Notes under the pieces: generated by a model
What the model was told of the DNA's origin: nothing
Database searches by the model: none
What the model saw: the letters and a program-made list of their open reading frames with translations, nothing else
Source of the DNA: Phycisphaeraceae bacterium
GTDB taxonomy: Bacteria; Planctomycetota; Phycisphaerae; Phycisphaerales; UBA1924
Direction of reading: 5' to 3'
Length of the DNA stretch: 64,000 nucleotides
Assembly: GCA_007693965.1 (NCBI GenBank)
Contig: RECQ01000024.1
Coordinates: 1-64,000 of the forward strand
Translations under genes and position numbers: made by a program
Shown: piece after piece, positions 20,116 to 64,000 of the stretch
Numbering within the stretch: the first letter of the stretch is position 1
How the letters are laid out: each line of letters starts with the position of its first letter

Positions 20116-20170
20116 CTCGGGTCGCTCGCCGTTTTTACGACGAAATCAGGTGGGTTGCTCAGTGGACCAA

Positions 20171-21570: not shown

Positions 21571-22129
21571 AATCTTCAATGGGCACCTGCCGCGATTCTT
21601 GCACCATGGCGTCATAGCGAGCATTATAAATCAGCGACAACTCTTCACACATGACCGAACTGTCTCGCGTAGTGTCCACATACGCCTCGCTCATTTCGAT
21701 CAATATATCGAGCAAGCGATTGGCAAATGCCACCTTTCTTTCATCAACGCCACTTGACAATTCTCTGCACACCCTGCGGACAATTACGTATTCCGACAAT
21801 AGGCCGGATTCGCGAAAAATACGGACAACCACACCATGCTGGGCATCATCCATTTCGGCATCATGAAATTTGTACAGATAACTCAGTAGATTTTCAATGT
21901 CACCTTCAACAAGTGAATGGGACTTATAAGAATAGTCAATCAATGCCCATTTGCGAACAGATTCGCTATCATGCAAGAGCCGTTCGGACAGCGGTAAATT
22001 GTGAGGCCTATGATCGTAGACAAAGAAGGTATTTGCGATGGGGATACCAATCAGAATAAGAAGCGCAGCCAGTATCCCAACAGAACACAGGAGGCGAATT
22101 CCAATCTGTTTACGACTGCGAGTAGTCAT
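21569..22129 (-). CDS. Single-pass membrane protein of unknown function in a low-GC patch
   Basis: A 186-residue protein: a basic N-terminus (MTTRSRKQIG), then one membrane helix (LLCSVGILAALLILIGIPIA), then a soluble helical domain (SLVEGDIENLLSYLYKFHDA, VAFANRLLDILIEMSEAYVD). The ATG at 22129 is the natural start. Base composition is clearly AT-richer than the window, as for the gene at 20171-21205. I recognise no family. It is bounded by the short-repeat copies B and C. Confidence 0.55.
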   Translation of the reverse strand: MTTRSRKQIGIRLLCSVGILAALLILIGIPIANTFFVYDHRPHNLPLSERLLHDSESVRKWALIDYSYKSHSLVEGDIENLLSYLYKFHDAEMDDAQHGVVVRIFRESGLLSEYVIVRRVCRELSSGVDERKVAFANRLLDILIEMSEAYVDTTRDSSVMCEELSLIYNARYDAMVQESRQVPIED

Positions 22130-22249
22130 ATTGCAAGGCTAATTTGGGGGTTGTTGTCCCAGGGATTCACTTGGCCGCCTGAGTTTCGGCATGCCTCTGC
22201 TGCATCCCGGAGCCTTCCTCGATAATAATGATACAGATTTGAACGCGGG

Positions 22250-22291
22250 TGTGGCGCCCGAAACTGACAATGTGTGGGGCCGCCCGCCCGC
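22250..22291 (+). repeat. Short repeat, copy C
   Basis: TGTGGCGCCCGAAACTGACA continues ATGTGTGGGGCCGCCCGCCC. It is the counterpart of copy B and marks the right edge of the low-GC patch. Confidence 0.55.
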
Positions 22292-22378
22292 CTCCGTGGT
22301 AGTCGGGGTCGACGCCGGGGAGGGGGCTGCGAATGCGAGCTGCTGGAGTTGTTCAGGGGTGCGGCCGCGGGCGCTGCT

Positions 22379-22849
22379 TCAGTGGTCGGTGACCATCATG
22401 AGTTGCGAGCCGGGGGCGAAGGGGGGGAGGATCATGCCTTCGATGTCGATCTCGGGGAACTTGGAGTCGACTTCATCGGCGCTGAGATCTTCCGCGAGGA
22501 CGGCGCCGGTGATGTCGGTCACCGTATAGCGCGGTCCTTCGGTGGTGGCGTGGATCTGCAGGATGTAGCGCGAGCCTTCGAGCGTGCCGAGGCTGGCGCG
22601 GCCGCCGCGGCGGGCGTCGTCGGAGTCGGGGGCGCCGGGGGCGCCGGGGGTGTAGGTGTCGAGGTTGCCGGGGCCGGGTCCGTAGCCGGGGCGCGGGGCG
22701 GGGCCGGGGCCGGCCATGTCGTCGGCGGCGGTGGGGCCGGGGTCGATGACGCTGGCGGTATAGAGGAAGGCGCTCGCCACAACCAGGGCGACCAGGATGC
22801 GGACGAGTGTCCGTGAGGGATGCGCATTGCCGAGCATTCCGGTCTTCAT
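22379..22849 (-). CDS. Membrane-anchored small protein of unknown function
   Basis: A 156-residue protein starting at the ATG at 22849: MKTGMLGNAHPSRTLVRILV, continuing into one membrane helix (RILVALVVASAFLYTASVID). A Gly/Pro-rich low-complexity segment (GPGPAPRPGYGPGPGNLDTY) precedes a C-terminal globular part with RYILQIHATTEGPRYTVTDI and PEIDIEGMILPPFAPGSQLM. The frame upstream of 22849 looks non-coding. No family is recognised. It is divergent from tRNA-Glu. Confidence 0.55.
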   Translation of the reverse strand: MKTGMLGNAHPSRTLVRILVALVVASAFLYTASVIDPGPTAADDMAGPGPAPRPGYGPGPGNLDTYTPGAPGAPDSDDARRGGRASLGTLEGSRYILQIHATTEGPRYTVTDITGAVLAEDLSADEVDSKFPEIDIEGMILPPFAPGSQLMMVTDH

Positions 22850-22955
22850 GCAATTCACATCGGCCAACCGGGCCCGGGGCTGCGGGGAAAACGGGCCGAA
22901 AACCGATGGAGAGGAGCGATTCGGCTCTTTATTGAGCCGCGGCGGATTTCGGACG

Positions 22956-22983
22956 TTGTGGCCTCCGCCGCGGCCGCTAGAAT
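22956..22983 (+). promoter_or_regulatory. Possible sigma-70-type promoter of tRNA-Glu
   Basis: TTGTGG and TAGAAT are separated by 16 bases, and the TAGAAT box ends about 60 bases before the tRNA. The -35 box differs from TTGACA at two places. Assigned by eye only. Confidence 0.35.
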
Positions 22984-23044
22984 CGATCGCCTCGATCGTC
23001 AGAAGCCCCGGCCGGGACCAAGCCGGAATTGGGGCGAACAACTG

Positions 23045-23119
23045 GGCCCCATCGTCTAGTCTGGTCCAGGACATCACCCTTTCAAGGTGAAGACACGGGT
23101 TCGAATCCCGTTGGGGTCA
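23045..23119 (+). tRNA. tRNA-Glu (anticodon TTC)
   Basis: A 75-base cloverleaf. The acceptor arm pairs GGCCCCA with TGGGGTC, with discriminator A at 23119. The anticodon stem TCACC/GGTGA encloses the loop CTTTCAA, giving anticodon TTC. The T arm is CGGGT/ACCCG-like around TTCGAAT. CCA is not encoded. A run of seven T bases starts right after the gene at 23120 and may help termination. No second copy of its 3' end is visible, so there is no sign of a prophage attachment duplication. Confidence 0.95.
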
Positions 23120-50146: not shown

Positions 50147-50626
50147 TCACACCGCCGGCGTCCGCTGCTCTTCACGTGTAAAGACGATGAATCCGATCGA
50201 CGGCGGCGCCTCCACCACGCCGCGGAGATCCACCATGATCTGCCCGCGATGGTGGGCGCCGTGCACGGCGAGATGGGTGAGCACATCGGCCGCCTTCGAG
50301 CGGAACGAAACGCCATCCCGCCCGGAATAACTGATCACCCTCTGCAGATCCTGATTCGAGAGCGCCCCGATGTGTTCGATCAGATCGCGGGCGATGCGCT
50401 CACCATGATGCTCGATCTGGTCCAGCGTCCATCGCCCGGGCGCGTCCTCCGGCGCAGCTCGTCCGGGATCGAGGCGGAAGAGCCAGATGCGCTGGGCGTC
50501 GATGATGTGCGTCATGCGCTCCAGCGCCCGCTCCGGCGGCGATCCGCGCAGGCCGCGGAGCGTGTCGACGATGCGCTGATTCGCCCATGCCTCGTACTCG
50601 AAGAGTGTGATGAAGTGGTCGCGCAT
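50147..50626 (-). CDS. DinB-family protein
   Basis: A 159-residue four-helix protein. The first helix LFEYEAWANQRIVDTLRGL is typical of DinB (YxxWxNxR), and MTHIIDAQRIWLFRLD has the first metal His. The C-terminal VLTHLAVHGAHHRGQIMVDL carries the other His residues in the usual HxxxHHRGQ pattern. Members bind a divalent metal; some are bacillithiol- or mycothiol-dependent transferases. The reaction is unknown. It is only distantly like the other DinB-type protein at 6149-6664. Confidence 0.88.
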   Translation of the reverse strand: MRDHFITLFEYEAWANQRIVDTLRGLRGSPPERALERMTHIIDAQRIWLFRLDPGRAAPEDAPGRWTLDQIEHHGERIARDLIEHIGALSNQDLQRVISYSGRDGVSFRSKAADVLTHLAVHGAHHRGQIMVDLRGVVEAPPSIGFIVFTREEQRTPAV

Positions 50627-50690: not shown

Positions 50691-51257
50691 TTAGCCTAGA
50701 ACCTTCAGGAACGCCTTCAGCCACGCCGGGTGCGCCGGCCACGCGGGGGCGGTGACGAGCGAGCCGTCCGTATGGGCCTCGGCCCAGTCCTTCTCCACGA
50801 ACTTCCCGCCCCCGGCGGTCACCTCCGGAGCGCACGCGGGATAGCAGGAGATGGACCGCCCCTTCACCGCGCCCGCCGCCGCGAGAAGCTGCACGCCGTG
50901 GCAGATGCACGCGATCGGCTTGCCCTCGTCCGCGAAATGGCGCACCGCCCGCAACACATCGTCGTTCAGGCGCAGATACTCCGGCGCACGCCCGCCGGGG
51001 ATCACCAGCGCATCGTGCTTCTCGGGGCGCACATCGGCGAAGGTCGCGTTGAGTGTGAAGTTGTGGCCCGGCTTCTCGCTGTAGGTCTGCTCGCCCTCGA
51101 AATCGTGGATCGCCGTGCGGACGGTGTCCCCCGACTTCTTCCCCGGGCACGCGGCGTGCACGGTGTGGCCCACCATCTGCAGCGCCTGGAAGGGAACCAT
51201 GACCTCGTAGTCCTCGACATAGTCGCCGACGATCATCAGGATGCTCTTTCCGGACAC
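50691..51257 (-). CDS. DJ-1/PfpI-family protein
   Basis: A 188-residue class I glutamine amidotransferase-like protein. The nucleophile elbow is [10 protein letters not shown] with Cys119 and His120, the acid Glu15 or Glu18 lies in [10 protein letters not shown], and [18 protein letters not shown] precedes it. Family members act as proteases, glyoxalase III, deglycases or chaperones, so the reaction is not fixed. [17 protein letters not shown] is an insert near residues 51-67. It sits between the DinB gene and the GH57 fusion. Confidence 0.9.
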
Positions 51258-51384: not shown

Positions 51385-52494
51385 TCAGACCGCGCCCACA
51401 CGCGTCCGCAGGTTGTCCAGCACGTTCATGAAGTTGATGTACGACTCGTACGGCGATTCATACGGGCTGAAATACCGGTGAACGGCCCCGTCACCCGACT
51501 CCTTCGTGCACATGAAGTAGAAGTGGTCCGAGGTGGTCAGGCGCCGCCAGTCCTGCAGCAGCCCCGCGGCCTCGGCGGGGTCGATCGCCGCGGCTCTGCG
51601 GATGCGTCGCTCCAGTTTGTGCAGCTCGTACAGCGCGTTCGACTGCATCGCGTTGCCCAGCCACGCCGAAAGGTCCCGCTCCGTATCGGCCCACGAGATC
51701 ATCGCCGGCGCGTCGTACACGGCCCGCGCCTCGAAGCGGTCGAACGCCTCGGACGGCGTGCAGAAATCGTTCCGCCCGGCGCCCGCCTCCAGCACCGCCC
51801 CCGGCAGCTCATCGAGGAAACGCAGGACGCCCGTGTCCTCCCAGTGGTGCTCGCCGAACGTCTCCGAATCCATGAAGAGGCAGCACACGCGCTCCTGCGC
51901 CTCGGGAACAGCACCCGACGCCGCCCCGCCGCCGACGCCCGCGTCGTTGATCCCATCAATCCACCGCGCAAACTTCTGCGGCGTCAGCGGCCACTCGCTC
52001 CACGAGCGGTTCGCAAAGCGAAACGCGATGTCGTCGCTCAATCGGTGGTTCTTCAGCAGCAGCGCAAACGGCCGCCCGCCATACCCCACCCCAGTATGCG
52101 GCGGGCGATAGACCAGGTCCGGCGTCCGCCCGCGGAGCACGCTCTCGACCCCCTCCGTCAGCGCCCCCCTGAACCGCGGCCCGCCCGAGGCGTCCTTCAT
52201 CCCGTTCACGAAGTGCGCCAGGTCGTTGTTGTAGATCAGCTCGGTGTTGCGGAACACCCGCGGCGTGACGCCGAACAGCGCCTCGATCCGCGCCGTGTGC
52301 ATGTCCACCTGCTCGACGAACTCCTCGCGCGAATAGACGAAGGCCAGCGAGTGGTGATACGTCTCCGCCAGCAGCTCGTCGCGCACCTCTTGTGGATCGT
52401 CGGAGCCGAGGATGAGATAGCGGCGCTCGACGAAGGCGCGGGATCCGGTCTGGATGACCGGGCTCTCGAACTTTTCCTCGACTGTGATCGCCAT
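51385..52494 (-). CDS. Chimeric frame: phage tail gene start joined to C-terminal part of a GH57 glycosidase
   Basis: The 369-residue frame begins MAITVEEKFESPVIQTGSRA then FVERRYLILGSDDPQEV, which looks like a phage protein and starts 20 bp after the tape-measure stop behind a GGGAAG site. From about residue 43 (ELLAETYHHSLAFVYSREEF) onward it is an alpha-amylase of family GH57: RVFRNTELIYNNDLAHFV, VYRPPHTGVGY, LSDDIAFRFANRSWSEWPLT, FMDSETFGEHHWEDTGVL with the acid Asp, ISWADTERDLSAWLGNAMQ and YFSPYESPYESYINFMNVL. GH57 proteins of this type normally have ~110 more residues at the N-terminus, including a first catalytic-domain segment, and these are missing. The enzyme is therefore unlikely to work. 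The junction is in the codons for DELLAET. Confidence 0.85.
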   Translation of the reverse strand: MAITVEEKFESPVIQTGSRAFVERRYLILGSDDPQEVRDELLAETYHHSLAFVYSREEFVEQVDMHTARIEALFGVTPRVFRNTELIYNNDLAHFVNGMKDASGGPRFRGALTEGVESVLRGRTPDLVYRPPHTGVGYGGRPFALLLKNHRLSDDIAFRFANRSWSEWPLTPQKFARWIDGINDAGVGGGAASGAVPEAQERVCCLFMDSETFGEHHWEDTGVLRFLDELPGAVLEAGAGRNDFCTPSEAFDRFEARAVYDAPAMISWADTERDLSAWLGNAMQSNALYELHKLERRIRRAAAIDPAEAAGLLQDWRRLTTSDHFYFMCTKESGDGAVHRYFSPYESPYESYINFMNVLDNLRTRVGAV

Positions 52495-52514: not shown

Positions 52515-54383
52515 TCACGTGAACGTCAATCCGCCCTGCTGGGCGCTCTCGAGGAGCCGCCGCGTGTTCCGCGCTGTCTCTTCGCTCGCCTTGGCCGTTC
52601 GATCTGCCGGCCCCGTTCCCCCGGCGCCGAGAAGCCTCTGGATGAGCGCGGGGTTGAACGTGCCGCGGACCTCGACGCGGCGCGCGATCCCCTCGCCCAC
52701 CGAGTCCAGCTCCGCGATGAGATCGCGGAAGCGGTCGAGGACGGGCGGGCGTCCGGCGTCGTCCGCCTCGACCTGCTCGCGCCGGCGCCGGGATTCATCG
52801 AGGGCCCGGTCCAGCTCGCGGCGGGCGTCCTCGAGCGCCCTGCGCCGCTCCTCCATCTTTTCCGCAGCGCCATCGAGGATCCCCCTCGTGCGTTCGTCCT
52901 GCTCGCGCGAGATGCGGCCGAGTGCGTCCTCGGTCTCGCGGGCCAGCGACTCCAGCGCGCTGCGCGACCGGGCGTCGAGCTGGGCCTTGGCGGCCTCGAC
53001 ATCGAGCGATTCGTCGAAGAGTCCGAAGAGCTCGGTGAAGCGCTTGGCGAGGAAGTTCTGCGTCCGCTCCCACACGCCCTGCACGCCCGAGGCGAAACGC
53101 GTCCACAATCTCGACATCCCGCCCAGCACATCCACGAAGGCCAGGCGCATCACGAGCAGGCCCTCGGTGAAGGTCTCGCGGATCTCGCGCGTGCCCTCGA
53201 GGAAGACCAGCCGCAGGCCATTCCACAGGACGCGCGCCGCCAGGGCCAGATCGCCCGCGGCCAGGGCGTCACGGATCCCGCCCAGCGTCCTGCCCACCAC
53301 CGCGCCCAGCGATGCGAAGCGATCGCGCAGGAACTCCAGCGCCGCCGATCCGGACCCGCCGAAGCGGAGAAAGGCGACGCCCGCGCCTACCACAGCCGCG
53401 ACCACGAGGCCGATGGGGGAGAGGAGCGCGCCGAGAACAGCGCCAACGAGGCCGAACGCGCCGCCCACAGCGGAGACAATCGTCGCCAGACCGCCAAAGG
53501 CGGCGCCGATGAGCGTGATCGCCACGCCCAGCGCGAGCAGCGCTGCGCCGACGGCGACGACGCCGACGGCGATCTTCGCAGCCGTGACGATCAACTGCCG
53601 GTTCTGGCGGATCCAGTCGTTGGTGACCACGGCGATGCGCGTCACGCGCTCGACGAGCGCCTCCAGCGCCGGCGCCAGGGCGGCGCCGATGGCGACGGCG
53701 GTGATGCGGAGAACACGCCGCAGAATGTTCATCGCGTCGGTGAACCGCGCGGCGTCGCGGGCCGTCTCGGTGGAGATGGTCAGCCCCAGCCGCCGGGCCT
53801 CTTCCTGCATCGCCTCGATCCCGCGCGCCCCCTCCTGCATGAGCGGCAGGAGCTGCGAGCCGGCGCGGCCGAGGATCTGCATGGCCACCGCCGCCCGCCG
53901 CGTCGGGTCCTCGATATTGCTCAACCGCTCGGCGACGAGCTTGAACTGCTCCTCCGGCGCCAGATCGCGCAGGTCGTTGATGGAGAGGCCGAGGGCGCTG
54001 AACGCATCGGTCTGCGTCGAGAGGCCGCGTTCGAGGTCGATGATGGAGCGCTGCAGCGTGCGCACGCCCTTTTCGAGCGTGCCGAGATCGGCGCCCGACT
54101 GCTCGGCGGCGAAGCCGAGCTCGCTGAGCGATTCGACGGAGATCCCCGTCCGCCGCGACATCTTGTCGAGCTCATCGCCCGCGCGGGCGAAGACGCGCAC
54201 CATCGGCGCGAAGGCCGCCAAAGCCGCGCCGCCCGCGGCGACGAGGCGCGTCCCGACAGCGCGCACACCGGCGCCGAAGGCGCGGAGCCGCCGCTGGGCC
54301 CGGCGAAGGCCGGCGCTCAGGCGGTCGGAGACGCCCAGCTCGACGAAAGCGCGGCCGGCGCGGATTCCCCTGGGATTCGGCAT
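52515..54383 (-). CDS. Phage tail tape measure protein
   Basis: A 622-residue protein that sets tail length and helps DNA entry. The N-terminus RAFVELGVSDRLSAGLRRAQ and GAGVRAVGTRLVAAGGAALA is the usual start, followed by MSRRTGISVESLSELGFAAE and GASELEKG-like helices. A hydrophobic stretch in the middle ([40 protein letters not shown]) gives membrane-like helices, and the end is a Glu/Arg-rich coiled coil (EDARRELDRALDESRRRREQ). At 622 residues it is short, which suggests a tail near 90-100 nm. It is 3 bp from the upstream gp10-like gene. Confidence 0.9.
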   Translation of the reverse strand: MPNPRGIRAGRAFVELGVSDRLSAGLRRAQRRLRAFGAGVRAVGTRLVAAGGAALAAFAPMVRVFARAGDELDKMSRRTGISVESLSELGFAAEQSGADLGTLEKGVRTLQRSIIDLERGLSTQTDAFSALGLSINDLRDLAPEEQFKLVAERLSNIEDPTRRAAVAMQILGRAGSQLLPLMQEGARGIEAMQEEARRLGLTISTETARDAARFTDAMNILRRVLRITAVAIGAALAPALEALVERVTRIAVVTNDWIRQNRQLIVTAAKIAVGVVAVGAALLALGVAITLIGAAFGGLATIVSAVGGAFGLVGAVLGALLSPIGLVVAAVVGAGVAFLRFGGSGSAALEFLRDRFASLGAVVGRTLGGIRDALAAGDLALAARVLWNGLRLVFLEGTREIRETFTEGLLVMRLAFVDVLGGMSRLWTRFASGVQGVWERTQNFLAKRFTELFGLFDESLDVEAAKAQLDARSRSALESLARETEDALGRISREQDERTRGILDGAAEKMEERRRALEDARRELDRALDESRRRREQVEADDAGRPPVLDRFRDLIAELDSVGEGIARRVEVRGTFNPALIQRLLGAGGTGPADRTAKASEETARNTRRLLESAQQGGLTFT

Positions 54384-54386
54384 CGC

Positions 54387-54854
54387 TCATCCTCCCCGCA
54401 CGCTGTTGGCCCACGCCTTCGGGATGTTCGGCAGCTCCTTCTGCAGCGCCGGGCCCATGTAGGGACGGGCCTCGATGCGGACGCGCTTGGACTCGATCAC
54501 ACGGCCCCCGCCGCGGCGCGTGCGGCGGCGCTCGACTCTGGTCCGTCCGCCGAACTCGAGGACGCTCGGCGCCTCGCCCGGCTTGTTCAGCCTCGCCGGC
54601 CCGACGACGACCGAGTCCGAGGCGCGGTCGTAGCCGAAGAGGATGAGCCTGCGCAGCGAGCCCTCGTGCGAGTGCGGCGGTGATCCAGGAGGCGATGACC
54701 CTCGGCGCCGGCGGATGCTCGTCCGGGCCCGCTGGCGGATGAAGGCGCCGGCCCTGGAGAGGGCGCGTAGTTTGGCGCGGTTCACGGCCCGCCGCACCTT
54801 GGGGCGGTCGAGGAAGATGTTCTTCACACGCATGTCGAAGAGGGGCGAGGCCAT
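54387..54854 (-). CDS. HK97 gp10-like neck or tail completion protein
   Basis: A 155-residue basic protein. The start at 54854 overlaps the previous stop (ATGA). VRRAVNRAKLRALSRAGAFI, RTSIRRRRGSSPPGSPPHSH, LRRLILFGYDRASDSVVVGP, LEFGGRT and ARPYMGPALQKELPNIPKAW follow the HK97 gp10 pattern (ARPFMRPAL near the end). It normally lies between connector and tail genes; here it is between the chaperone and the tape measure. The upstream frame extension to 55448 is a shadow of the chaperone gene. Confidence 0.72.
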   Translation of the reverse strand: MASPLFDMRVKNIFLDRPKVRRAVNRAKLRALSRAGAFIRQRARTSIRRRRGSSPPGSPPHSHEGSLRRLILFGYDRASDSVVVGPARLNKPGEAPSVLEFGGRTRVERRRTRRGGGRVIESKRVRIEARPYMGPALQKELPNIPKAWANSVRGG

Positions 54855-55162
54855 CAGTGTTCGCTCCGGTCGTCGCTGGTTGTCCTCGCCGCGGGAGGCT
54901 TCGCGCCTGTGAAGAGCGTCTTGAGCTCCATCATGTCGCTCCGGCCCGTGCGCTTCGTGAATGGGTCGAAATCCCCCGGCTTGAAGGCGCGCGTCTTCTT
55001 CGGATCCCGGTGAACGTTGGCGATCAGGGCCAGCAGAGAGCTCGTCCGCGCCCATTCGCTCCTCTCGCGCTGCTCGGCCATCGCCAGCAGCTCGCGCAGT
55101 GTCAGTGCGGCGGGGTCGAGTCCGACGACGCCGGCGCAGCGATGGATGAGCGACCATGCGCC
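54854..55162 (-). CDS. -1 frameshift extension of the tail-assembly chaperone (GT-type)
   Basis: This segment encodes about 102 residues: AWSLIHRCAGVVGLDPAALT, LRELLAMAEQRERSEWARTS, SLLALIANVHRDPKKTRAFK and PGDFDPFTKRTGRSDMMELK. It is strongly protein-like, but its frame has no ATG, GTG or TTG before the AWSLIH segment apart from a distant ATG at 55384 inside the chaperone gene. It lies in the -1 frame of that gene, and the frames meet at CCGGGGGCG. Tail chaperones of many siphoviruses are made in a short and a frameshifted long form from this position before the tape measure. Confidence 0.7.
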   Translation of the reverse strand, partial: GAWSLIHRCAGVVGLDPAALTLRELLAMAEQRERSEWARTSSLLALIANVHRDPKKTRAFKPGDFDPFTKRTGRSDMMELKTLFTGAKPPAARTTSDDRSEH

Positions 55163-55605
55163 CCCGGAAGTGTCGCCTGCTCCAGCGCCTCGTCGATCGC
55201 CCGATCGAGTTCGCCGCTCTCGAGGCGCGCCTCGACCAGGTCGCGGGCCCTCTCCATCGCGGTCCGCGTGGCCTTGAGCACCCGCCCGAGGGCGGCCCGG
55301 TCCCTCGGGCTCGGGCAGAAACCCACCACTTCCTCCAGCAGCGCCTCGGTGGCGTGCTCGATCGCGTCCCCCGCCATGGCGCAACCGAACTCCTCATCGG
55401 TGACTCCCTTCGCGTCCGCCTCGGTCTTGCACGCGGCGTAGAGCACATCGCACAGCAGCACCGGGTCGCGGATAAGCCGCTCGATGAGCGTCCCGTCGAG
55501 AACCTCCAGGAGATCGACGCCAGTCAGCCCCTTGACGCGCTTCAATGCCGCGACGTTGATCTCGACGGTCCATGCGCGCCCCGCGTTGTCATGAAACTGC
55601 TTCAT
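55102..55605 (-). CDS. Tail-assembly chaperone, short form (G-type)
   Basis: A 167-residue protein from the ATG at 55605: MKQFHDNAGRAWTVEINVAA, LKRVKGLTGVDLLEVLDGTL, VLLCDVLYAACKTEADAKGV and EVVGFCPSPRDRAALGRVLK. The pattern of helices and its place directly after the tail tube gene fit the lambda G-type chaperone that coats the tape measure. The last ~20 residues after LEQATLPG look non-conserved (SSIAAPASSDSTPPH), while the -1 frame from that point is protein-like. The start overlaps the tail tube stop by 1 base. Confidence 0.78.
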   Translation of the reverse strand: MKQFHDNAGRAWTVEINVAALKRVKGLTGVDLLEVLDGTLIERLIRDPVLLCDVLYAACKTEADAKGVTDEEFGCAMAGDAIEHATEALLEEVVGFCPSPRDRAALGRVLKATRTAMERARDLVEARLESGELDRAIDEALEQATLPGAHGRSSIAAPASSDSTPPH

Positions 55606-56036
55606 CAGGAGACTCCGTTCTCGGTCCACTGGTCGAACTCGGCCAGCTTGGCGGTGACGCTGACGGTGATGCCCTCTTCCAGCGGCTCACTGCGCGAGAA
55701 GTTGGTGATGGACCAGTCGCCCACGGGGCCGTTGCCCTGCGCGCCGGGTGAATCGAGCGCGGCGAGGCCGATGATCCCGCTGGTGAGGAAGGCGTCCTTG
55801 ATGGCGTCGAAGCCGTCATCGCCCGGCTCCCACACCATCTCGAACTCGATGGTGGCCTCGCGCAGGCCTGCGATGGTCTGGCGCCAGCCCTGGTTGCCGC
55901 GGGTGGTGACATCCGCCTCGTTGGCCTCGGCGGACACCGTGACATCGCGGACGTTGGTGAGATCCACCCACGAACCGACGGAGTCGAAGCCGCCCACCTT
56001 GTACCTGAGAACCGCGAACATGCCCTGGATGGCCAT
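55605..56036 (-). CDS. Phage major tail (tube) protein
   Basis: A 143-residue protein from the ATG at 56036: MAIQGMFAVLRYKVGGFDSV, then LTNVRDVTVSAEANEADVTT, REATIEFEMVWEPGDDGFDA and DWSITNFSRSEPLEEGITVS. The N-terminal strand, the ANEADVTTRGNQG loop and the E-rich closing strand (TVSVTAKLAEFDQWTENGVS) are those of siphovirus tail tube proteins. Copies would stack as hexamers to form the tail. It stands directly before the chaperone and after the neck protein. Confidence 0.82.
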   Translation of the reverse strand: MAIQGMFAVLRYKVGGFDSVGSWVDLTNVRDVTVSAEANEADVTTRGNQGWRQTIAGLREATIEFEMVWEPGDDGFDAIKDAFLTSGIIGLAALDSPGAQGNGPVGDWSITNFSRSEPLEEGITVSVTAKLAEFDQWTENGVS

Positions 56037-56059
56037 GTGGATCTCCTCCCTCCTTGTCC

Positions 56060-56491
56060 CTACCGCGCGATGCGGTAGGTGACGGTCAGAACGGATGTGA
56101 AGACGCTGAAGCGCTCGATGTGCTCGGCGGCGAGCACCGGCTCGTGCTCGCTGGTGAGCCACTGGGCCTCCGGCATCGTGTCGAGGCGCTTGAGGCGCAG
56201 GTGGTCGCCGATCTGCTCGACCAGGTCGAGCAGGGCGTCGATCTGCGCCGGCGCCTCGGGGTCGATGCGCTTCTGCACGCCGATGTCGATGGCGAGGTCG
56301 AAGAAGTTGCTGGCGCGCGAGGCGGGGCTCACCGTGGCGCTGCGGGGCACGATGCTGAGCTGGATATTGTCGCCCACCTTGCCGAGGTCAAAGATCGGCA
56401 GGTGAGACCGTTCAGCGGTCACCGGCGGATCGAAGGTCTGACCGTTGAGGGACGCGGTAATGGCGTCGGCGAGTTCGACGATGGCGCTCAC
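56060..56491 (-). CDS. Phage neck or tail-terminator protein
   Basis: A 143-residue protein beginning (GTG) MSAIVELADAITASLNGQTF. KVGDNIQLSIVPRSATVSPA, DLAIDIGVQKRIDPEAPAQI and DALLDLVEQIGDHLRLKRLD have the alternate strand-helix layout of tail terminator proteins, and FTSVLTVTYRIAR closes the fold. Its GTG overlaps the previous stop (GTGA). Its place directly before the tail tube supports the role; sequence similarity by eye is moderate. Confidence 0.65.
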   Translation of the reverse strand: MSAIVELADAITASLNGQTFDPPVTAERSHLPIFDLGKVGDNIQLSIVPRSATVSPASRASNFFDLAIDIGVQKRIDPEAPAQIDALLDLVEQIGDHLRLKRLDTMPEAQWLTSEHEPVLAAEHIERFSVFTSVLTVTYRIAR

Positions 56492-56751
56492 CTGGTCCCC
56501 CTCTCAAGGCCTGAACTCCCGCTCCCGTAGGTGAGGCCCTCCAGGAAGGACAGGCGCCGGTCGAAGTCGGTGTAGACGAGGCGCATGGACTGGATCTCCA
56601 CGATGATCTCGTCGAGGCGCTTCTCCACACCGTCGAGTCGGGCGCTCACCACGCCCCACTGGATGGTGAACGCGACCAGCGCCAGCAGCGCCGTCAATCC
56701 CAGCGCCGCCCGGTGAACACGGCCATCGCCATTGTGTGCGGACTTCGTCAC
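56488..56751 (-). CDS. Small single-pass membrane coiled-coil phage protein
   Basis: An 87-residue protein (GTG start, overlapping the preceding stop as GTGA): one membrane helix (LGLTALLALVAFTIQWGVVS), then a short coiled coil (LDGVEKRLDEIIVEIQSMRL). Similar small proteins occur in the head-to-tail gene block of several planctomycete phages; its role is unknown. A holin-like or spanin-like role is possible but the place in the neck block argues against lysis. Confidence 0.6.
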   Translation of the reverse strand: MTKSAHNGDGRVHRAALGLTALLALVAFTIQWGVVSARLDGVEKRLDEIIVEIQSMRLVYTDFDRRLSFLEGLTYGSGSSGLERGTR

Positions 56752-57146
56752 GGCGCTGACTCCTCTCCGATGAACTTCGTATGAATCCGCAGCGTCCTGC
56801 GGAATGGATCGCTGAAGCGGAAGGGCGGCTCATTGCCTCCCTGCGCACCCGGCGCCATGACCTCGTAGACCAGCACGCGCCCGTCCACGTTCTCGCGCAC
56901 GCGGTCGCCCGCCCGCGGCGTCGCCTGCTCGCCATCCAGCACAAGATTCGCAGCGCGCACGAGGTAGTCGCGCATCTCGCTGCGATGGATCACGCCGAAC
57001 TGATCCTGCTGGTCGAAGATCGTGCGCCCCACCGTGGCCTGCACCTCGACGCTCACCACGCCCCGCGCATACACCACCGGCCGCGTCATGTGCGCGTGCC
57101 GCTGGTCTTCGAGGAACGCCGAGCCCTGTTCGAGCAGGTCCGCCAC
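56748..57146 (-). CDS. Phage head-tail joining-type protein
   Basis: A ~132-residue protein. I place the start at the GTG at 57146, since GAGGTGA lies 5 bases before it; a GTG at 57155 is the alternative. ADLLEQGSAFLEDQRHAHMT and RPVVYARGVVSVEVQATVGR are followed by QDQFGVIHRSEMRDYLVRAA and DPFRRTLRIHTKFIGEESAP. It is a compact beta protein like the phage head-tail joining proteins placed after the capsid genes. The longer frame to 57872 is a shadow of the DUF2190 gene. Confidence 0.6.
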   Translation of the reverse strand: MADLLEQGSAFLEDQRHAHMTRPVVYARGVVSVEVQATVGRTIFDQQDQFGVIHRSEMRDYLVRAANLVLDGEQATPRAGDRVRENVDGRVLVYEVMAPGAQGGNEPPFRFSDPFRRTLRIHTKFIGEESAP

Positions 57147-57156
57147 GTCGATCACC

Positions 57157-57498
57157 TCACTGGTCGAGCCGGATGCGCACGGTGGCGTCGCCATCGCCCG
57201 CCGCGGCGACGCTCTTGCCGATGAGCTTGTTGGCGCCACCATCGGCGTCTGTGGTCGCGAGCTCGTTGGCGGCGTCCCAGTGAAGCAGCGCCCCGGCCGC
57301 GATCGCCGTAGCGCCGCCCGTCGCCTTGGGGAAGTCGAAGACGCCCTGCACCGCCAGCGCGCCCAGCGCATCGGCGGCGATGGGCTGTTTGGCCACACCC
57401 ACCAGCTCGCCCTGCACCACCACATCGCCCGCCGCCACGTTGGACGAAGGCGTGTAGTCCACCATCCCGCCCTCATGAACAAAGATCGCCGTCGCCAT
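57157..57498 (-). CDS. DUF2190-family phage protein (capsid decoration-like)
   Basis: A 113-residue protein: MATAIFVHEGGMVDYTPSSN, VAAGDVVVQGELVGVAKQPI, VFDFPKATGGATAIAAGALL and LIGKSVAAAGDGDATVRIRL. This is the DUF2190 pattern, with a short beta barrel thought to decorate or stabilise capsids in some phages. Its start follows AGGAGG, part of which overlaps a short GGCATCAGGCAT repeat at 57509-57532. Confidence 0.82.
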   Translation of the reverse strand: MATAIFVHEGGMVDYTPSSNVAAGDVVVQGELVGVAKQPIAADALGALAVQGVFDFPKATGGATAIAAGALLHWDAANELATTDADGGANKLIGKSVAAAGDGDATVRIRLDQ

Positions 57499-57508
57499 GA
57501 TTCAACCT

Positions 57509-57532
57509 CCTGATGCCTGATGCCCAGTGCCC
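57509..57532. repeat. Short iterated GGCATCRGGCAT repeat, copy 2
   Basis: Minus-strand units of the type GGGCACTGGGCATCAGGCAT lie in the gap before the DUF2190 gene and merge with its ribosome binding site. The unit is like that at 6721-6746 outside the phage module. Confidence 0.45.
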
Positions 57533-57544
57533 GGCGCCTCTCTT

Positions 57545-57850
57545 CTAGAACCTGATCTCTTCCACGCCCCCGGTGGCCGCGCCGCCGACGCCGCGCATGA
57601 CCACGTGGCGGATGAACTGGTTGGATCCTGTGATCCGCGCCGCCTCGCCCGGCTTGAGTTCGGCCTGTTCGTCCTCTGGATCTGCGGGCGCTTCGAGGCG
57701 GTACTCCAGCGCGTTCGCCGAGTCCGCAGCGCAGGTGAGCAGCAGCTCGCGCGCCCCCGCGCCGTCCGCGCCGCCCGCATCCTGTGAGCGGAAGACATCC
57801 GTCCAGCTCGGCCCCGCGGCGATCGAGATGCGGTTGCTCCGCCGCGCCAT
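57545..57850 (-). CDS. Small phage structural-region protein of unknown function
   Basis: A 101-residue protein: MARRSNRISIAAGPSWTDVF, then GARELLLTCAADSANALEYR and NQFIRHVVMRGVGGAATGGV. A beta-rich, compact protein with no known motif. It lies between the 199-residue gene and the DUF2190 gene in the capsid block, so it may be a decoration or joining protein. Confidence 0.6.
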   Translation of the reverse strand: MARRSNRISIAAGPSWTDVFRSQDAGGADGAGARELLLTCAADSANALEYRLEAPADPEDEQAELKPGEAARITGSNQFIRHVVMRGVGGAATGGVEEIRF

Positions 57851-57864
57851 CTACGCTGACTCCT

Positions 57865-58464
57865 TCACGCATGAACCCCGTTCATGATCACCGCGCGTGA
57901 TCTGCCGCGAGAGCGGGCTGCGCCGCCTCCCGTGGGCGGTGGCGGATCGTCCCAGTGGACTCTGAATCGCACGCTGTCGATGCGCAGGACGTTGCCCTGG
58001 AAGTGCGTGGTGCTGCTCTCCCCCCGCAACTGGAAGCCGAACGACGGATCGAAGAGGTCCGCCGGCGCGAGGTTCATGTCGTTCCCGGCGCTGCCGAGGA
58101 TGAAGACGCCGGGCGTGTCGATCGGAAGCGAGCCCGCGCCGAGATCGGCTCGGACGGACCCATTCACCACCGCCTCGACATCCACGATCCGGGTTCCATC
58201 GGGATTGCCCGTCCAGCGGCCCCGCACCTCGACCTCGACGCCGAGGAGCATGAACTGTCCCGCCGGCGGCAGCGCGCCGTTGCTCAGCGCATCGGAAGCC
58301 CGCAGACGGTTGGTCACCGTGTGGAAGGAGGACAGTCCCAGCGAACCCGACACCGCCTCCGCGCTGTCGAAGGCCAGGATGTTGTCCGCATCCGTCCACG
58401 ACGCGTGGAACTCGTCGAGCTCCTGCGCGTTCTGGAAGATCAGCCACGTTGTGACCTCGGCCAT
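57865..58464 (-). CDS. Phage structural-region protein of unknown function
   Basis: A 199-residue protein: MAEVTTWLIFQNAQELDEFH, ASWTDADNILAFDSAEAVSG, GVEVEVRGRWTGNPDGTRIV and HFQGNVLRIDSVRFRVHWDD. It is beta-rich, with a proline and glycine turn near the end (PPPPTGGGAARSRGR). The role is unknown; its place right after the capsid gene suggests a decoration or head-neck part. It starts 3 bp after the capsid stop. Confidence 0.65.
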   Translation of the reverse strand: MAEVTTWLIFQNAQELDEFHASWTDADNILAFDSAEAVSGSLGLSSFHTVTNRLRASDALSNGALPPAGQFMLLGVEVEVRGRWTGNPDGTRIVDVEAVVNGSVRADLGAGSLPIDTPGVFILGSAGNDMNLAPADLFDPSFGFQLRGESSTTHFQGNVLRIDSVRFRVHWDDPPPPTGGGAARSRGRSRAVIMNGVHA

Positions 58465-58467
58465 CGC

Positions 58468-60561
58468 TCATGCCTCCCCCTTGGCCTTCACGCCGCCGCG
58501 GGAGTCCTGGAGGTTGACGCCGAAGTCGTGGTAGCCGCGCATCTGCACGCCCAGCACGTTGAAGTCCGCCTCGGCCGTCTCGATGGTGGGCGACTCCTGG
58601 CCGTTCAGGAACGCGGTCTCGATCACCGGCAGGTCCGCGGGCTCGGCCAGCAGGTACCACGCCTTGTTCGAGAAGCCGGGGAACTGCGCGTTGGCCAGGT
58701 ACCTGCTCACCTCGACGCGGAACTTGCCCTGGTGGGGGTTGGCGACGGGGAACTTGGTGTTGGCGGTGGTGTCGCGGAGCTCGAGCGAGCGGAAGAGCTG
58801 CGTGCCGATCGCCGAGAGCGATGTGGGCACGAGCATCATGGCGGGCATGATCCCGATGGGCTTGCCGTCGGAGTCCACCTGGTCCATGAAGGCGACCTCG
58901 GCCCGGGTCAGCCCGTCGATGGAGAGGGCCGTGTCGGCGCCGTCGATGAAGTTGTTGTTCCCCGCGGTGAAGAACGAGGCGTTGTTCAGGAAGGTGGTCC
59001 AGAAGACGTCGTTGATCTTGAGGCCCGAGCCGCGGCCGAGCTTGCGGGGCACGGTGGTGATGGCCCCGAGGTCGTCGTTGATGATGTCGCGGCGGTCGAT
59101 CGCCAGCAGCAGGCCGTAGGTGTCGGCCTTGTTGGTGTACTGCTCTTCGCCCAGCGTCCCGTGCTTGAGCTCGCCCCCCGGCGCCACGATCTCGTACTGA
59201 TCCTTGCCGATGAGGCGGTAGCTGGTCACCGTCTTGAAGTCGCTGACGTTGCGGACGGCGGTGATGTTGCGCCACGTCCGCTCGACGCTGAAGAAGCCCT
59301 CGAGGAGGAACTTGTTGGCGACGTTGGAGAGGATGCCGCCGATGTCGATGGTCGAGAAGCCCGCGGCCACGTCCGGCGCCTCGGGCTTGAAGGCGTAGCG
59401 CAGCACCGCCCGGCTGTCGCGGAAGGACCGGCCCGTGTACCCGTTGGCCCACGCGGCCTCGAGCAGAAGCTCCTGCAGGCCGATGCCGCCGCGGAAGCGC
59501 TTGGCGGCCAGGTCCAGTGCCCGCGGCTCATACAGCGAATCGAGCTCACTCAATCCCGCCGTCATCATGCACGCGGCCTCGAGGACGCCGGCGCTCATCG
59601 TGTTGTCGGGCGCGTGGATCGCCGGCGCGCCGGCCACCTTGGGCCGGCCGGCCCGCAGCACCTCCAGCTCGCAGCGCGTGGCGTCCCACCCCTCGCGGAT
59701 GGCCTGCGCCTCGATCTCGGGGCGCCCGGCGCAGAGCCTGCGGACCGTGTTGATCCGCTCCGACTCCGCCGCCGCCTCGGCGCGGATGTCGCGGACACAG
59801 TCCGCAGCCTGCAGTCTGGAGTCTGCAGCCGGAAGATTGGCGCTGCTCGCGCGATCAGCGCCGCCAGCGCTCTCCGGCGTCGCGGCCGAAGCATTGTCGT
59901 TCGAAGTCGTCTCTTCGAGACGGTCATTGTCGTTCAGATCCATCGTGTCTTCCTCCAGACTGCGGACTCCAGACTCCGGACTGTTCCCTGCCGCCACGCT
60001 CACACTCGTCTGCCCGTCCGCGCCCAGGTCCACGAAACTGATCTCGCCCAGCGTCGAGCGCCGCACCACGTTCAGCGGCCCCTCGAAGCTGCGGCCGTTG
60101 ACGATCGCGCTGCGCCCCTCGGGCACGAACTCGAACTCGTCCACACTCGCGCCGATCGACGCCTGCCACGGGAAGCCGTTCTTCGAGGACGCCACCACCT
60201 CGCGCGCCACCGGCGTGTCGCGCGAGATGACGCCGCTGGCGACAAGCCTGCCCCCCTCGACGCGGATGGCGTCGGTGTGCCCGACGCCCGCGCTTGGATC
60301 GTGCGTGAAGCGGATGGGGCGCTTCGGCGAGGGGATCGCCATCCCGGCAAGATCGACGACGACGGGGAAGCGCCAACCGGCCAGACGCATGGCGCCGCCG
60401 GTGTACGCCACAGCGCTGAAGCGCGGCAGGCGCTGTGCGCCGCCATCTTCACCCGCAGCGGCCTCGACCTCGATCGCTGCTTCGGCGGTCAGATTGAGAC
60501 TGGTCGGAATGTCGGGCGCATCAGGCCGCGCGGGCGGCCGCGCCTTGGCGTTCTTCGGCAT
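58468..60561 (-). CDS. Prohead protease joined in frame to a Mu gpT-like major capsid protein
   Basis: A 697-residue frame. Residues ~45-190 resemble a prohead protease: RFSAVAYTGGAMRLAGWRFP, IRFTHDPSAGVGHTDAIRVE with possible catalytic His87 or His95, and the serine motif GFPWQASIGASVDEFEF (Ser135). From Met207 (59943) it is a capsid-type protein: ELDSLYEPRALDLAAKRFRG, then STIDIGGILSNVANKFLLEG, SVERTWRNITAVRNVSDFKT, VTSYRLIGKDQYEIVAPGGE and a C-terminal MRGYHDFGVNLQD. The Met207 ATG has CTGGAGGAAGACACG before it, a strong ribosome binding site, so the capsid protein may start there independently. The in-frame linker contains repeat-like sequence at 59803-59832 and 59953-59983. It overlaps the portal gene by 41 bp. 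Confidence 0.85.
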   Translation of the reverse strand: MPKNAKARPPARPDAPDIPTSLNLTAEAAIEVEAAAGEDGGAQRLPRFSAVAYTGGAMRLAGWRFPVVVDLAGMAIPSPKRPIRFTHDPSAGVGHTDAIRVEGGRLVASGVISRDTPVAREVVASSKNGFPWQASIGASVDEFEFVPEGRSAIVNGRSFEGPLNVVRRSTLGEISFVDLGADGQTSVSVAAGNSPESGVRSLEEDTMDLNDNDRLEETTSNDNASAATPESAGGADRASSANLPAADSRLQAADCVRDIRAEAAAESERINTVRRLCAGRPEIEAQAIREGWDATRCELEVLRAGRPKVAGAPAIHAPDNTMSAGVLEAACMMTAGLSELDSLYEPRALDLAAKRFRGGIGLQELLLEAAWANGYTGRSFRDSRAVLRYAFKPEAPDVAAGFSTIDIGGILSNVANKFLLEGFFSVERTWRNITAVRNVSDFKTVTSYRLIGKDQYEIVAPGGELKHGTLGEEQYTNKADTYGLLLAIDRRDIINDDLGAITTVPRKLGRGSGLKINDVFWTTFLNNASFFTAGNNNFIDGADTALSIDGLTRAEVAFMDQVDSDGKPIGIMPAMMLVPTSLSAIGTQLFRSLELRDTTANTKFPVANPHQGKFRVEVSRYLANAQFPGFSNKAWYLLAEPADLPVIETAFLNGQESPTIETAEADFNVLGVQMRGYHDFGVNLQDSRGGVKAKGEA
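59803..59832. repeat. Dispersed CTGCAGTCTGGAGTC-type repeat inside the capsid gene
   Basis: CAGCCTGCAGTCTGGAGTCT on the plus strand, part of a short palindrome-like motif also found at 59953-59983. It encodes the low-complexity NLPAADSRLQAADC segment of the protease-capsid frame. Confidence 0.45.
59953..59983. repeat. Dispersed CTCCAGACTGCGGACTCC-type repeat between protease and capsid parts
   Basis: CTCCAGACTGCGGACTCCAG on the plus strand continues ACTCCGGACTG. It lies just before the internal capsid start at 59943 and provides the GGAGG of its ribosome binding site. Confidence 0.5.
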
Positions 60562-62029
60562 CCTCTTCGTCCTCTTCCTGTGTTGGTGTCGGCTCGGCGG
60601 GCGCTTCCGGGGGCGCCTGCGCCGGACTCAATCCGAGCCGCTGCATCAGCGCCGCCTCCTTGGCCCGCTGCTTGAGCTCTTCTTCCCAGTCGCGCCCCTG
60701 CCGCGCGAACTCCGCCGCCAGCGTGGTGGTGTGGTTGGCCAGCCGTGTCGCCTGCGCGTTGGCCTCCTTGGCCGGGTCGACGTGCTCGACGCCGTCCCAG
60801 AACCAGGCGTGGGGCGCATGCGCATCCGTCCGCCGCATCGACTGCGGCAGCAGCCCTTCGACCAATGCCGCCTCATCCAGCCAGGCGCGCAGGATCCGGT
60901 CCAGCGCCGCCAGCTCGAGGTGGCGCTGCTCGACGCGGATGCTCTTGAAGTAGGTCTGGTGATCGAGCCGGCCCGAGGCGTAGTTGTAGCCCGAGCTGTT
61001 CCCCGCCGCGACGTTGAAGGGCATGCTCAGGCAGCGCGCGATCTCGTTGAGGATCTCGCGCTTGAACTCGCCGTAGGTCGTCGTCGGCTGCTCGGCGTGG
61101 ACCTGGCCCAGTTTCCAGCCGCCGGGGAGGACCGTGGCCAGGCGCTTCTCCAGCTCGACCATGTCCATGGGCTCGAGGGGATCGGCCTCGCCGTTGGCGG
61201 GGGCGTCGGTGTAGATCACCGCCGCGAAGTCCGCCGCCGTCTCCGCCGCGGCGATGACCGCCAGCGTGTACCGGCGCAGCTGCGCAAAGAGCGGCAACGC
61301 GGGCGTGATGTCGGGAATGCCGCGGCGCTGACCCGGGCGGTCGGCGCGGAAGTAGTGGATCACGGACTCGGCGCGGATGATGTCGAAGTCGAAGACACCC
61401 GATGCCCCACCGACGCCGAACGCCCCCGAATCGCCGGGGTGGTGGCGCAGGACGTGGTACGCGACGGGATTGCCGTATTCATCGAAGACGATCCCATCGA
61501 TCTCATTGGGACGAGGCAGCGCCGCCCGCGGCGAAGCCACCTGGTCCGCCTCGATGAGGCGCAGGTCGAGCTTCACCGGCGAATCCACCAGCGGGTTGCT
61601 GGTGAGCACCGCGAAGGCCTCGCCGCTGTCGGCCCGGGCCATGCGCATGGTGCGGAGCTTCTCGGGCAGGTCGACGGCGCAGGCCCATCGCTCAAAGGCA
61701 TGCTCGACGCGGTCGTTGGCCTCGGAATCCTCAGTGAGCAGCTGCAGCCGCGGACCGGTTCCGATGGTGTCGTTGGCGAGCGTGAGGATGATGCCGCGCG
61801 CGTAGCTGTTGTTGGCCACCTCGTAGCGGGCCCGGTTGCGCAGCGTCCGCCGCACCTGCGGGCTGATGGCGGCGTTGGGCGAAAGCCCGTCCGCCGCCGC
61901 CCAGTGGCGCCGGTTGTCGGGCGTGGTCTGGGCCGAATCGAATCGCGCCCGCACGACGGGGCGCACGATGCGCGACCTCGCGGATGGCGGCTTGTCCTGG
62001 CCTCGGGATGCGAAGAGTCGCTTGAGCAC
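60521..62029 (-). CDS. Phage portal protein (lambda family)
   Basis: A 502-residue portal that forms the DNA channel at the capsid vertex. VRRTLRNRARYEVANNSYAR then GIILTLANDTIGTGPRLQLL is the lambda-type motif, ARADSGEAFAVLTSNPLVDS is the next block, GQRRGIPDITPALPLFAQLR follows, and LNEIARCLSMPFNVAAGNSS then GYNYASGRLDHQTYFKSIRV is the conserved late block. The end is an Ala/Glu/Pro-rich tail that overlaps the protease start. It is downstream of the terminase and small connector genes, as usual. Confidence 0.93.
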   Translation of the reverse strand: MLKRLFASRGQDKPPSARSRIVRPVVRARFDSAQTTPDNRRHWAAADGLSPNAAISPQVRRTLRNRARYEVANNSYARGIILTLANDTIGTGPRLQLLTEDSEANDRVEHAFERWACAVDLPEKLRTMRMARADSGEAFAVLTSNPLVDSPVKLDLRLIEADQVASPRAALPRPNEIDGIVFDEYGNPVAYHVLRHHPGDSGAFGVGGASGVFDFDIIRAESVIHYFRADRPGQRRGIPDITPALPLFAQLRRYTLAVIAAAETAADFAAVIYTDAPANGEADPLEPMDMVELEKRLATVLPGGWKLGQVHAEQPTTTYGEFKREILNEIARCLSMPFNVAAGNSSGYNYASGRLDHQTYFKSIRVEQRHLELAALDRILRAWLDEAALVEGLLPQSMRRTDAHAPHAWFWDGVEHVDPAKEANAQATRLANHTTTLAAEFARQGRDWEEELKQRAKEAALMQRLGLSPAQAPPEAPAEPTPTQEEDEEDAEERQGAAARAA

Positions 62030-62030
62030 G

Positions 62031-62228
62031 TCAGTCAGCCCCCGGCGGCTCGAGCTTGACGAGCTTCACGCCCACGCCCTTGCGCCGCGTCGCCTTCTTT
62101 GACTCCAGGTACCGGTCCGCCTCGACCTGATCGCGCAGGCCGTGCTGCTCGACGGAGCCCGAGTCGCCCTGGGCGCGCTTGGGTCCCGCGGCGTTGTCGG
62201 CGATGGACTGTTCCAGCGGCTCAGGCAT
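62031..62228 (-). CDS. Small phage protein between terminase and portal
   Basis: A 65-residue protein, MPEPLEQSIADNAAGPKRAQ, then QHGLRDQVEADRYLESKKAT and a basic end RRKGVGVKLVKLEPPGAD. Small genes at this place often encode a gpW-like head-completion or joining protein, but the sequence is too short to confirm. It ends just before the portal start and overlaps the sigma-like gene by 8 bases. Confidence 0.6.
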   Translation of the reverse strand: MPEPLEQSIADNAAGPKRAQGDSGSVEQHGLRDQVEADRYLESKKATRRKGVGVKLVKLEPPGAD

Positions 62229-62553
62229 GCTTCACCTCTCCCACGCCGACGCCCCCGATCGCCGCGACCACCACCGACATCAGCTCGCCCGCCGCCGTCT
62301 CGCGGAGGCGATGCCGTCGCTCCCTGTGGCGGAAGGCGCTGACGGCCCTGGCCGCGTCGCGCCCCTCCAGGTGCGCCAGCCACGCCTCCTGCGCAGCGTC
62401 CTCGCGGTCGCCGGGGCGCACGAAGCGCATCTCCAGCGCGACCTTGCCCGGCGTCGCCGATGGCGGGATCGCGGCGTTCATCCACCATGTACGTGCGCGC
62501 TCAGGGCGCGAATCCATGAAGATGGCTTTATCGAGGCGGCAATGCGTCCACAT
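62221..62553 (-). CDS. Small protein with a sigma-factor region 2-like segment
   Basis: A frame of up to 110 residues; the start is uncertain. Its middle, RFVRPGDREDAAQEAWLAHL and EGRDAARAVSAFRHRERRHR, resembles region 2 of ECF-type sigma factors (EDxxQExxLxxLEG), with a basic end. Region 4 is absent, so it cannot act as a full sigma factor. It is between the zinc-ribbon gene and the connector-region gene. It may act on transcription of the phage genes or be a DNA-binding packaging helper. Confidence 0.55.
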   Translation of the reverse strand: MWTHCRLDKAIFMDSRPERARTWWMNAAIPPSATPGKVALEMRFVRPGDREDAAQEAWLAHLEGRDAARAVSAFRHRERRHRLRETAAGELMSVVVAAIGGVGVGEVKHA

Positions 62554-62571
62554 CTGGACGAAGCGCGCCTG

Positions 62572-62757
62572 TCACCGCTCGCGCGTGACGATGCGGCGGC
62601 CGCAGTGCCGGCACTGGCGCACACGCATGATGAAGCCGCTGCGCCGGCGCGTGTACTGCACGGGCAGATGCGCGCAACCGCAACTTGGACACACGACGCC
62701 CCGCCGCTCCTCCGCCGCGGCCCCGTTCCTCTCCGCATGGCGCGATCCCTGCGTCAT
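62572..62757 (-). CDS. Small zinc-ribbon protein
   Basis: A 61-residue protein from the ATG at 62757 (MTQGSRHAERNGAAAEERRG). It has two CxxC knuckles: CPSC at 23-26 and CRHC at 49-52, with basic residues between (YTRRRSGFIMRVRQ). This is the pattern of small zinc ribbons that bind nucleic acid, for instance Ogr/Delta-type late regulators of P2-like phages. The start overlaps the terminase stop (ATGA). Its role is likely in DNA binding or phage transcription. Confidence 0.68.
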   Translation of the reverse strand: MTQGSRHAERNGAAAEERRGVVCPSCGCAHLPVQYTRRRSGFIMRVRQCRHCGRRIVTRER

Positions 62758-64000
62758 CGCCTTCCCCCCTGCAGTTCCGACAGCCTGATGCGCGGCCTTG
62801 CGATCGGCTTCGTGTCCGTCCCGAAGAGCACCGATCCCTCCATCGACGCCGCCACCGCGCAGCCGACCAGGCAGTCGAGCCAGTGGTTGTCCATCCCCGG
62901 CTGCTTCAATCGCCATTCATCCACCGACCTCCCCCGCGCCTCGACGCGCACGCGCCGCTCGCTGGTCAGGTGCTCGGCCAGCAGCATGTGCCGCTCTGGC
63001 CTTGCCCCGAAGAGCGACAGCGCCCCGGGATCGCCCATGGGCGTGGCAAAACGGGCGAAGGTGAATGTTTTCCACCAGTTGGCGTCGAAGAGGATGTGCC
63101 GCACCGCACGCCTGCCCGTGTTCGTCGGCACGCGCCAGTTGAGTCCCACCCGCTCGCCGCGCTTGCGGCGGTATTCGCCGAAGGGCACGCTCGAGGCCCC
63201 AACGTACCTGCCGTGCGCCGGCATCACGATCCCGGCGTGCTTCGACTGGCGGCAGAACTGGTGCACCACATCCGTCGAAGCGCCCCAGTTGGCGTCGATG
63301 AGGCAGCGGTCGACTCGCATGGTCCCGCCCCCATCGCGCTTCCACTCGCGCCCGATCGTCCGCTCGCTCAGGCGCTCCAGCCCCGCGTAGATCGCGCCCT
63401 CCAGCCCGGCATGCTCGGAAGCGTCCTGGAGCGTGCGCCGCACATCCCGGAGTGTGAAGTAGGCGCCATCGCGCAGTTTCTGATCCGGCTCGACGCCGTA
63501 GTCCACCACGAATCCGGTGAAGTCCTCCTCCCACGCGCACAGCAGCCAGAAGAGGCACTTGCCCTGCACATCGATGAACATCGTCATCCGCGTCGCCGCG
63601 TGCGGCGCGAGGCCGCGCTCGTGGTTGTTCACACGGGCCGCGATCGTCTCCGCATCCGGCAGATCGTCGTCGATCCCCGTCGCCTCAGGAAGGGGCTCGT
63701 TCTGGTACTCGGCGAAGAAGGCGGCCTCGTCCTGGAGCTTGAGGTTCATCGCGTGCTGGATGGCGCTGAGCTCGTCGTGGTTGAAGCGCGAGTCCCACGC
63801 CACGGCGGCGCCCTCGTCCATCGCGGCGCGGTTCTCGCGGTAGAAGGCGGTGGCGTCCACGATGCCGCGGTCGGATCGCAGGCCCTCGGCCCGGAGCTGC
63901 GCGTACCGCGCCCACAATCCCTCGTTCGTCGGGAACGAATACACCATCTTCGTGCGCTCACCCTGCCAGGCCGGGTGCTTGTCGCGGTCGAGAAGGCGGT
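62754..64000 (-). CDS. Phage terminase large subunit, GpA-like, C-terminal part (5' end outside window)
   Basis: The frame is open to the right edge: before the internal Met at 63947 it reads LLDRDKHPAWQGERTKMVYS. The visible ~415 residues are mostly the nuclease half: AFFAEYQNEPLPE, then the first acidic strand MTMFIDVQGKCLFWLLCAWE (Asp), DRCLIDANWGASTDVVHQFC (Asp) and MDNHWLDCLVGCAVAASMEG (Asp), the RNase H-like acidic triad of terminases. The ATPase half must lie beyond the window. The protein cuts and pumps genome DNA into the capsid. Confidence 0.88.
   Translation of the reverse strand, partial: RLLDRDKHPAWQGERTKMVYSFPTNEGLWARYAQLRAEGLRSDRGIVDATAFYRENRAAMDEGAAVAWDSRFNHDELSAIQHAMNLKLQDEAAFFAEYQNEPLPEATGIDDDLPDAETIAARVNNHERGLAPHAATRMTMFIDVQGKCLFWLLCAWEEDFTGFVVDYGVEPDQKLRDGAYFTLRDVRRTLQDASEHAGLEGAIYAGLERLSERTIGREWKRDGGGTMRVDRCLIDANWGASTDVVHQFCRQSKHAGIVMPAHGRYVGASSVPFGEYRRKRGERVGLNWRVPTNTGRRAVRHILFDANWWKTFTFARFATPMGDPGALSLFGARPERHMLLAEHLTSERRVRVEARGRSVDEWRLKQPGMDNHWLDCLVGCAVAASMEGSVLFGTDTKPIARPRIRLSELQGGRR

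Follow-up and report, generated by a model that had tools for sequence, protein, structure and literature searches.

The 369-aa frame at 51385-52494 on the minus strand, uninterrupted by stops, reads as a chimera in which the start of a phage tail gene runs into the back three-quarters of a bacterial GH57 glycosidase gene. It lies in a window of 64,000 nucleotides, the whole stretch of DNA analysed here, from contig RECQ01000024.1 of a Phycisphaeraceae bacterium (GCA_007693965.1). The chimera is well supported. Most likely it marks a real deletion that left the GH57 gene dead. The type of event is already known, and the frame illustrates it clearly: the process is ordinary and no new system is involved. 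Its interest is threefold. The boundary between phage and host DNA is fixed at the joint in this frame; the genome's sole gene of this GH57 type, of which most relatives have one, is broken, so that the enzyme is not to be credited to the genome from annotation; and the locus appears to provide a clean case, in an uncultured planctomycete, of a prophage fused with an adjacent host gene through a deletion at a short sequence common to both. The first-pass annotation had proposed both the chimera and the position of the true phage/host boundary, and both proposals stand: each parent is recognised by many homologues, and non-phage genes lie on one side of the joint with phage late genes on the other (Table 1).

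The two parents of the frame

Of 120 genomes in the family, its own counted, 44 have phage genes, mostly open frames of 272-279 aa, whose starts match the first 45 residues of the frame. Intact relatives of this fragment are mostly 268-279 aa long, and the fragment, cut at ~43 residues, agrees with this ~270-aa phage gene both in its N-terminus and in its position directly after the tape measure gene, a position which the gene also holds in IMG/VR phage contigs and on contig C30 of the same genome. Two full-length members of the ~270-aa family (L002:754-1590 and L183:8948-9754) gave no match to NCBIfam or PHROG. Among Phycisphaerales prophages this family is widespread in the position after the tape measure, and C30 (4951 bp, L032), a fragment of a different but related prophage, carries an intact 278-aa copy there; C30 and the end of contig C55 (L212) represent one or two such different, related prophages. 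C55 was considered as a further truncated tape measure and rejected, as the contig merely ends inside that gene.

The closest prophage relative is internal to a 555-kb contig (C6) of genome G111. It is colinear from terminase through portal, capsid and tube to tape measure, after which it carries on with intact 268-aa and 451-aa genes, and the late operon of the window is therefore cut. Indeed, the late phage genes here stand in the usual order and break off inside a phage gene against host genes, as in a prophage remnant. The terminase starts at contig position 65135, outside the window, and the contig ends at 65852, 1.9 kb past the window and just upstream of the terminase, still in phage DNA.

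The remainder of the frame belongs to GH57. Residues 40-263 align to positions 104-291 of the 291 in the Pfam Glyco_hydro_57 profile (PF03065; E=1.9e-41), and because the match starts at position 104 the first 103 positions, the first third of the domain, are missing. When 61 genomes (its own and 60 relatives) were searched, 53 gave GH57 alignments, nearly all of which start only at query residue 40; in 80 named GH57 loci, nearly all of them planctomycete by title, the alignment likewise starts at residue 40, with two exceptions at 38 and 32. The relatives' proteins open with MASVVFYFQVHQP, and ~100 residues precede the point of match. The fused architecture is absent from the 80 named loci and from the 52 relatives' genomes with a match. 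Homologues joining the first 43 residues to a full-length GH57, which had been named beforehand as the finding that would speak against a chimera, were looked for and none was found.

Table 1. Features of the chimeric frame and its surroundings (positions in the window).
Feature	Position	Strand	Basis
Phage gene downstream of the tape measure, 5' fragment only (residues 1-~43)	52366-52494	-	homologues; 278-aa homologue in own contig C30
Joint: codons 42-45, CTG GCG GAG ACG on the coding strand (CTGGCGGAGACG); could be supplied by either parent, at most ~12 bp	52360-52371	-	changeover of per-codon matches, 98 GH57 and 29 phage homologues
3' three-quarters of the GH57 glycosidase gene (residues 42-369; 5' ~100 codons lost)	51385-52371	-	Pfam PF03065 positions 104-291; homologues in 52 of 60 other genomes
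Catalytic nucleophile Glu85 (FRNTE), kept	52240-52242	-	alignment with GH57 relatives; role from PMC6037648, assigned by motif
Proton donor Asp209 (FMD), kept	51868-51870	-	alignment with GH57 relatives; role from PMC6037648, assigned by motif
15-residue insertion (residues 188-202) immediately before the proton-donor strand	51889-51933	-	homologue alignment
Tape measure protein (622 aa), the phage gene nearest the joint that is still complete	52515-54383	-	PHROG tape measure families, E=1.3e-47; 73% identical to G111 prophage
Remaining late module: tail completion, tail tube, head decoration, capsid/protease, portal, terminase	54387-64000	-	profiles; colinear with G111 prophage, ~64-78% DNA identity
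DinB-like gene, non-phage	50147-50626	-	Pfam
DJ-1/PfpI gene, non-phage	50691-51257	-	Pfam

The joint and the sequence that the parents may have shared

Read in codon register, the changeover from phage to GH57 falls at 52360-52371, inside the interval 52350-52380 to which the joint had first been assigned. At codon 41 the joint has Leu, a residue found in three of 98 GH57 homologues against Phe in 94, and Asp39 is also unlike the GH57 family, in which codon 39 specifies Cys or Val. In the phage family, Leu occurs at codon 41 in about half of the members and Asp at codon 39 in some. From the other side of the joint, Thr45, Tyr46, His48 and Ser49 are GH57-like and are absent, or almost so, from the phage family. 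Glu40 is invariant in GH57, but this is probably a coincidental match, since Leu41 separates it from the GH57-like part. The residue frequencies make it almost certain that codon 41 of the GH57 parent specified Phe instead of Leu, and the parents' shared sequence would for this reason be at most ~12 bp. The 17-bp microhomology suggested earlier (GAGCTGCTGGCGGAGAC) has to be given up, as it needs the Leu found in only three of the 98 GH57 homologues. Both protein families can supply LAE at the joint, with ~12 bp as the upper limit and the parental bases deduced from homologues. The joint sequence is not repeated elsewhere in its own genome, and it gave no exact match in IMG/VR, from which the genome's own records may be left out.

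The state of the GH57 remnant

The features of the GH57 family, including the roles of the catalytic nucleophile and the proton donor, have been described (PMC6037648), and the HQP, FRNTE and FMD motifs were matched to them by alignment. The N-terminal HQP motif, which lies on the first barrel strand and is taken here to be conserved region 1, is invariant in the relatives and absent from the fusion. A model of a full-length relative (L005; pLDDT 85.1, pTM 0.88), for which a fold search returned the GH57 structures 1k1x, 3p0b and 5wu7 as best matches, places strand β1 at residues 3-10, β2 at 66-70 and β3 at 98-100, with β4 and its FRNTE Glu at 139-146 and the strand of the FMD Asp at 247-253; a PDB sequence search with the GH57 gave no match. 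The GH57 part of the fusion starts near residue 101 of this model. It aligns along the family over residues 42-369 and retains, by motif, the catalytic Glu of β4 and Asp of β7, whereas the first ~100 residues are gone and conserved sites have been lost; the (β/α)7 barrel is incomplete, lacking β1, β2 and most of β3. Because these strands and the HQP motif are lost the product should be inactive, and the earlier advice that the frame is no intact enzyme is borne out.

The kept part has itself changed. The 100 alignment columns in which at least 97% of the other sequences agree were counted as near-invariant sites, and seven of them are altered here, against a maximum of three and a median of zero among 95 homologues, some of which have longer terminal branches than the fusion's GH57 in a midpoint-rooted tree, which one long branch dominates and from which only the lengths of terminal branches were taken. 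The segment before the proton-donor strand is 35 residues long, compared with 20 in 93 of 98 homologues. Loss of constraint together with an insertion is what a broken gene should show, whereas an intact gene that has been misjoined should not; the GH57 remnant reads as a decaying pseudogene. Some of the excess change could be lineage-specific, since the genomes searched held no other of its genus.

A probable deletion scar and the alternatives

The joint is probably the scar of a chromosomal deletion that linked the late operon of a prophage to the GH57 gene downstream. In the ancestral state the GH57 gene would have been intact and preceded by a prophage whose late operon, of the long-tail type, read towards it on the same strand. 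A single deletion would then have taken the first ~100 GH57 codons together with any intervening host DNA and, from the prophage, the distal tail genes and the arm on that side. The ends would have been joined at the stretch of at most ~12 bp, with CTGGCGGAG as its core; slippage or alternative end-joining at short repeats is the likeliest route. The deletion would have killed both genes, and by chance the join would have fallen in frame, so that one open frame spans the two; an outcome both in frame and on the same strand has a chance of roughly one in six, and selection is not required. We infer both the former gene order and the repair mechanism. Gene order around GH57 is not kept among 20 relatives, and the former host neighbour of the prophage is not identifiable from it.

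The missing pieces were sought in the genome itself (3.48 Mb, 97.7% complete, a 74-contig draft), in which the joint is known from the assembly alone, by single queries. The 5' part of GH57 is absent, and the same query finds it in five of five control relatives. Neither the rest of the window phage's tail gene nor the tail gene that follows it is present in the genome other than in the different phage of C30, and the assembly holds no reciprocal product; a reciprocal inversion was rejected on this ground.

The first-pass annotation had left recombination and a chimeric assembly join side by side. The recombination half is the better supported, with deletion favoured by the missing 5' piece, the sub-k-mer overlap, the decay and a truncated remnant on contig C41, whilst the assembly half is not favoured and is retained at a low probability. 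An assembly chimera would have joined an intact GH57 locus to intact phage sequence, in silico or through chimeric reads. The genome is a draft, its bin holds several related phage fragments (C30, C41, C55 and C67), one such block ends this very contig, and a junction of host and phage DNA is a likely spot for a misjoin. Usual assembly k-mers are of 20 or more, however, and the overlap of at most ~12 bp falls below them; the joint lies outside repeats, the host arm with the 5' end of GH57, expected elsewhere in so complete a genome, is absent, and the relaxed constraint on the kept GH57 part is unexpected for an intact gene. A chimeric join is accordingly unlikely, although it is the least improbable of the alternatives. 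Far less probable is an insertion or a reciprocal rearrangement in which phage DNA entered the GH57 gene, or was exchanged with it, without loss, the 5' half now lying beyond the contig end. The far side is indeed out of view, as the contig stops within phage DNA, but the assembly holds neither that 5' half nor the remaining tail-gene sequence, and a cut at codon 43 of a phage gene is no natural end for a prophage.

It is also conceivable, with very small probability, that the fused protein is functional, the start of the phage gene giving expression or targeting to a shortened, useful GH57. The reading in frame, the ~330 stop-free GH57 codons and the two catalytic residues would suit such a protein; the loss of β1-β3 and HQP, the architecture's occurrence in none of the 80 loci or 52 genomes, the seven broken near-invariant sites and the insertion before the proton-donor strand all tell against it. 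No greater chance is given to the idea that phage late-gene signals drive expression of the hybrid frame and that the truncated GH57 persists because it has taken on a new role, be it non-catalytic or altered.

A deletion scar is in keeping with what has been documented elsewhere. Prophages have been described as prone to deletion, and defective, 'grounded' prophages decaying in this way (PMC6379469) are alike in being partial, with late genes kept, one arm lost and the boundary within a phage gene; what sets the present case apart is that the deletion would also have reached into the neighbouring host gene, removing its 5' end and producing an in-frame chimera. The cut through a tail gene had been remarked upon as unlike integrase-mediated insertion, and it creates no conflict, since it can be accounted for by later loss of a prophage arm and of the host DNA beside it. 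Deletions at repeats of 4-11 bp are likewise documented in bacteria: the large deletions in Deinococcus radiodurans recA, compatible with alternative end-joining (PMC8149714), resemble the joint in lacking a long repeat and probably in their short shared sequence, although they were seen directly in sequenced isolates, whereas the parental sequences here are reconstructed from homologues.

The window is not the only place in the genome with a deletion-truncated remnant of this phage type. Two other contigs of the genome, C41 and C67, repeat at 87-95% identity the block with which this contig ends, upstream of the terminase, and on C41 (22800-25393, L204/L205) a terminase of 95% identity breaks off at residue ~226 of 793, followed by a jump of ~410 bp. 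Beyond the jump C41 continues with non-phage sequence and then with an operon that looks, by eye and not by profile, like T6SS genes. The third copy of the block, on C67 (40848-43697, L206), sits beside what by eye are narH/narJ-like nitrate reductase genes, and no terminase match was found on that contig. Elsewhere in the window, G+C drops to 53% at 20001-22000 (within 20001-23000), compared with ~67% elsewhere, near the window's sole tRNA gene (tRNA-Glu, 23045-23119), and this low-G+C neighbourhood is a possible island.
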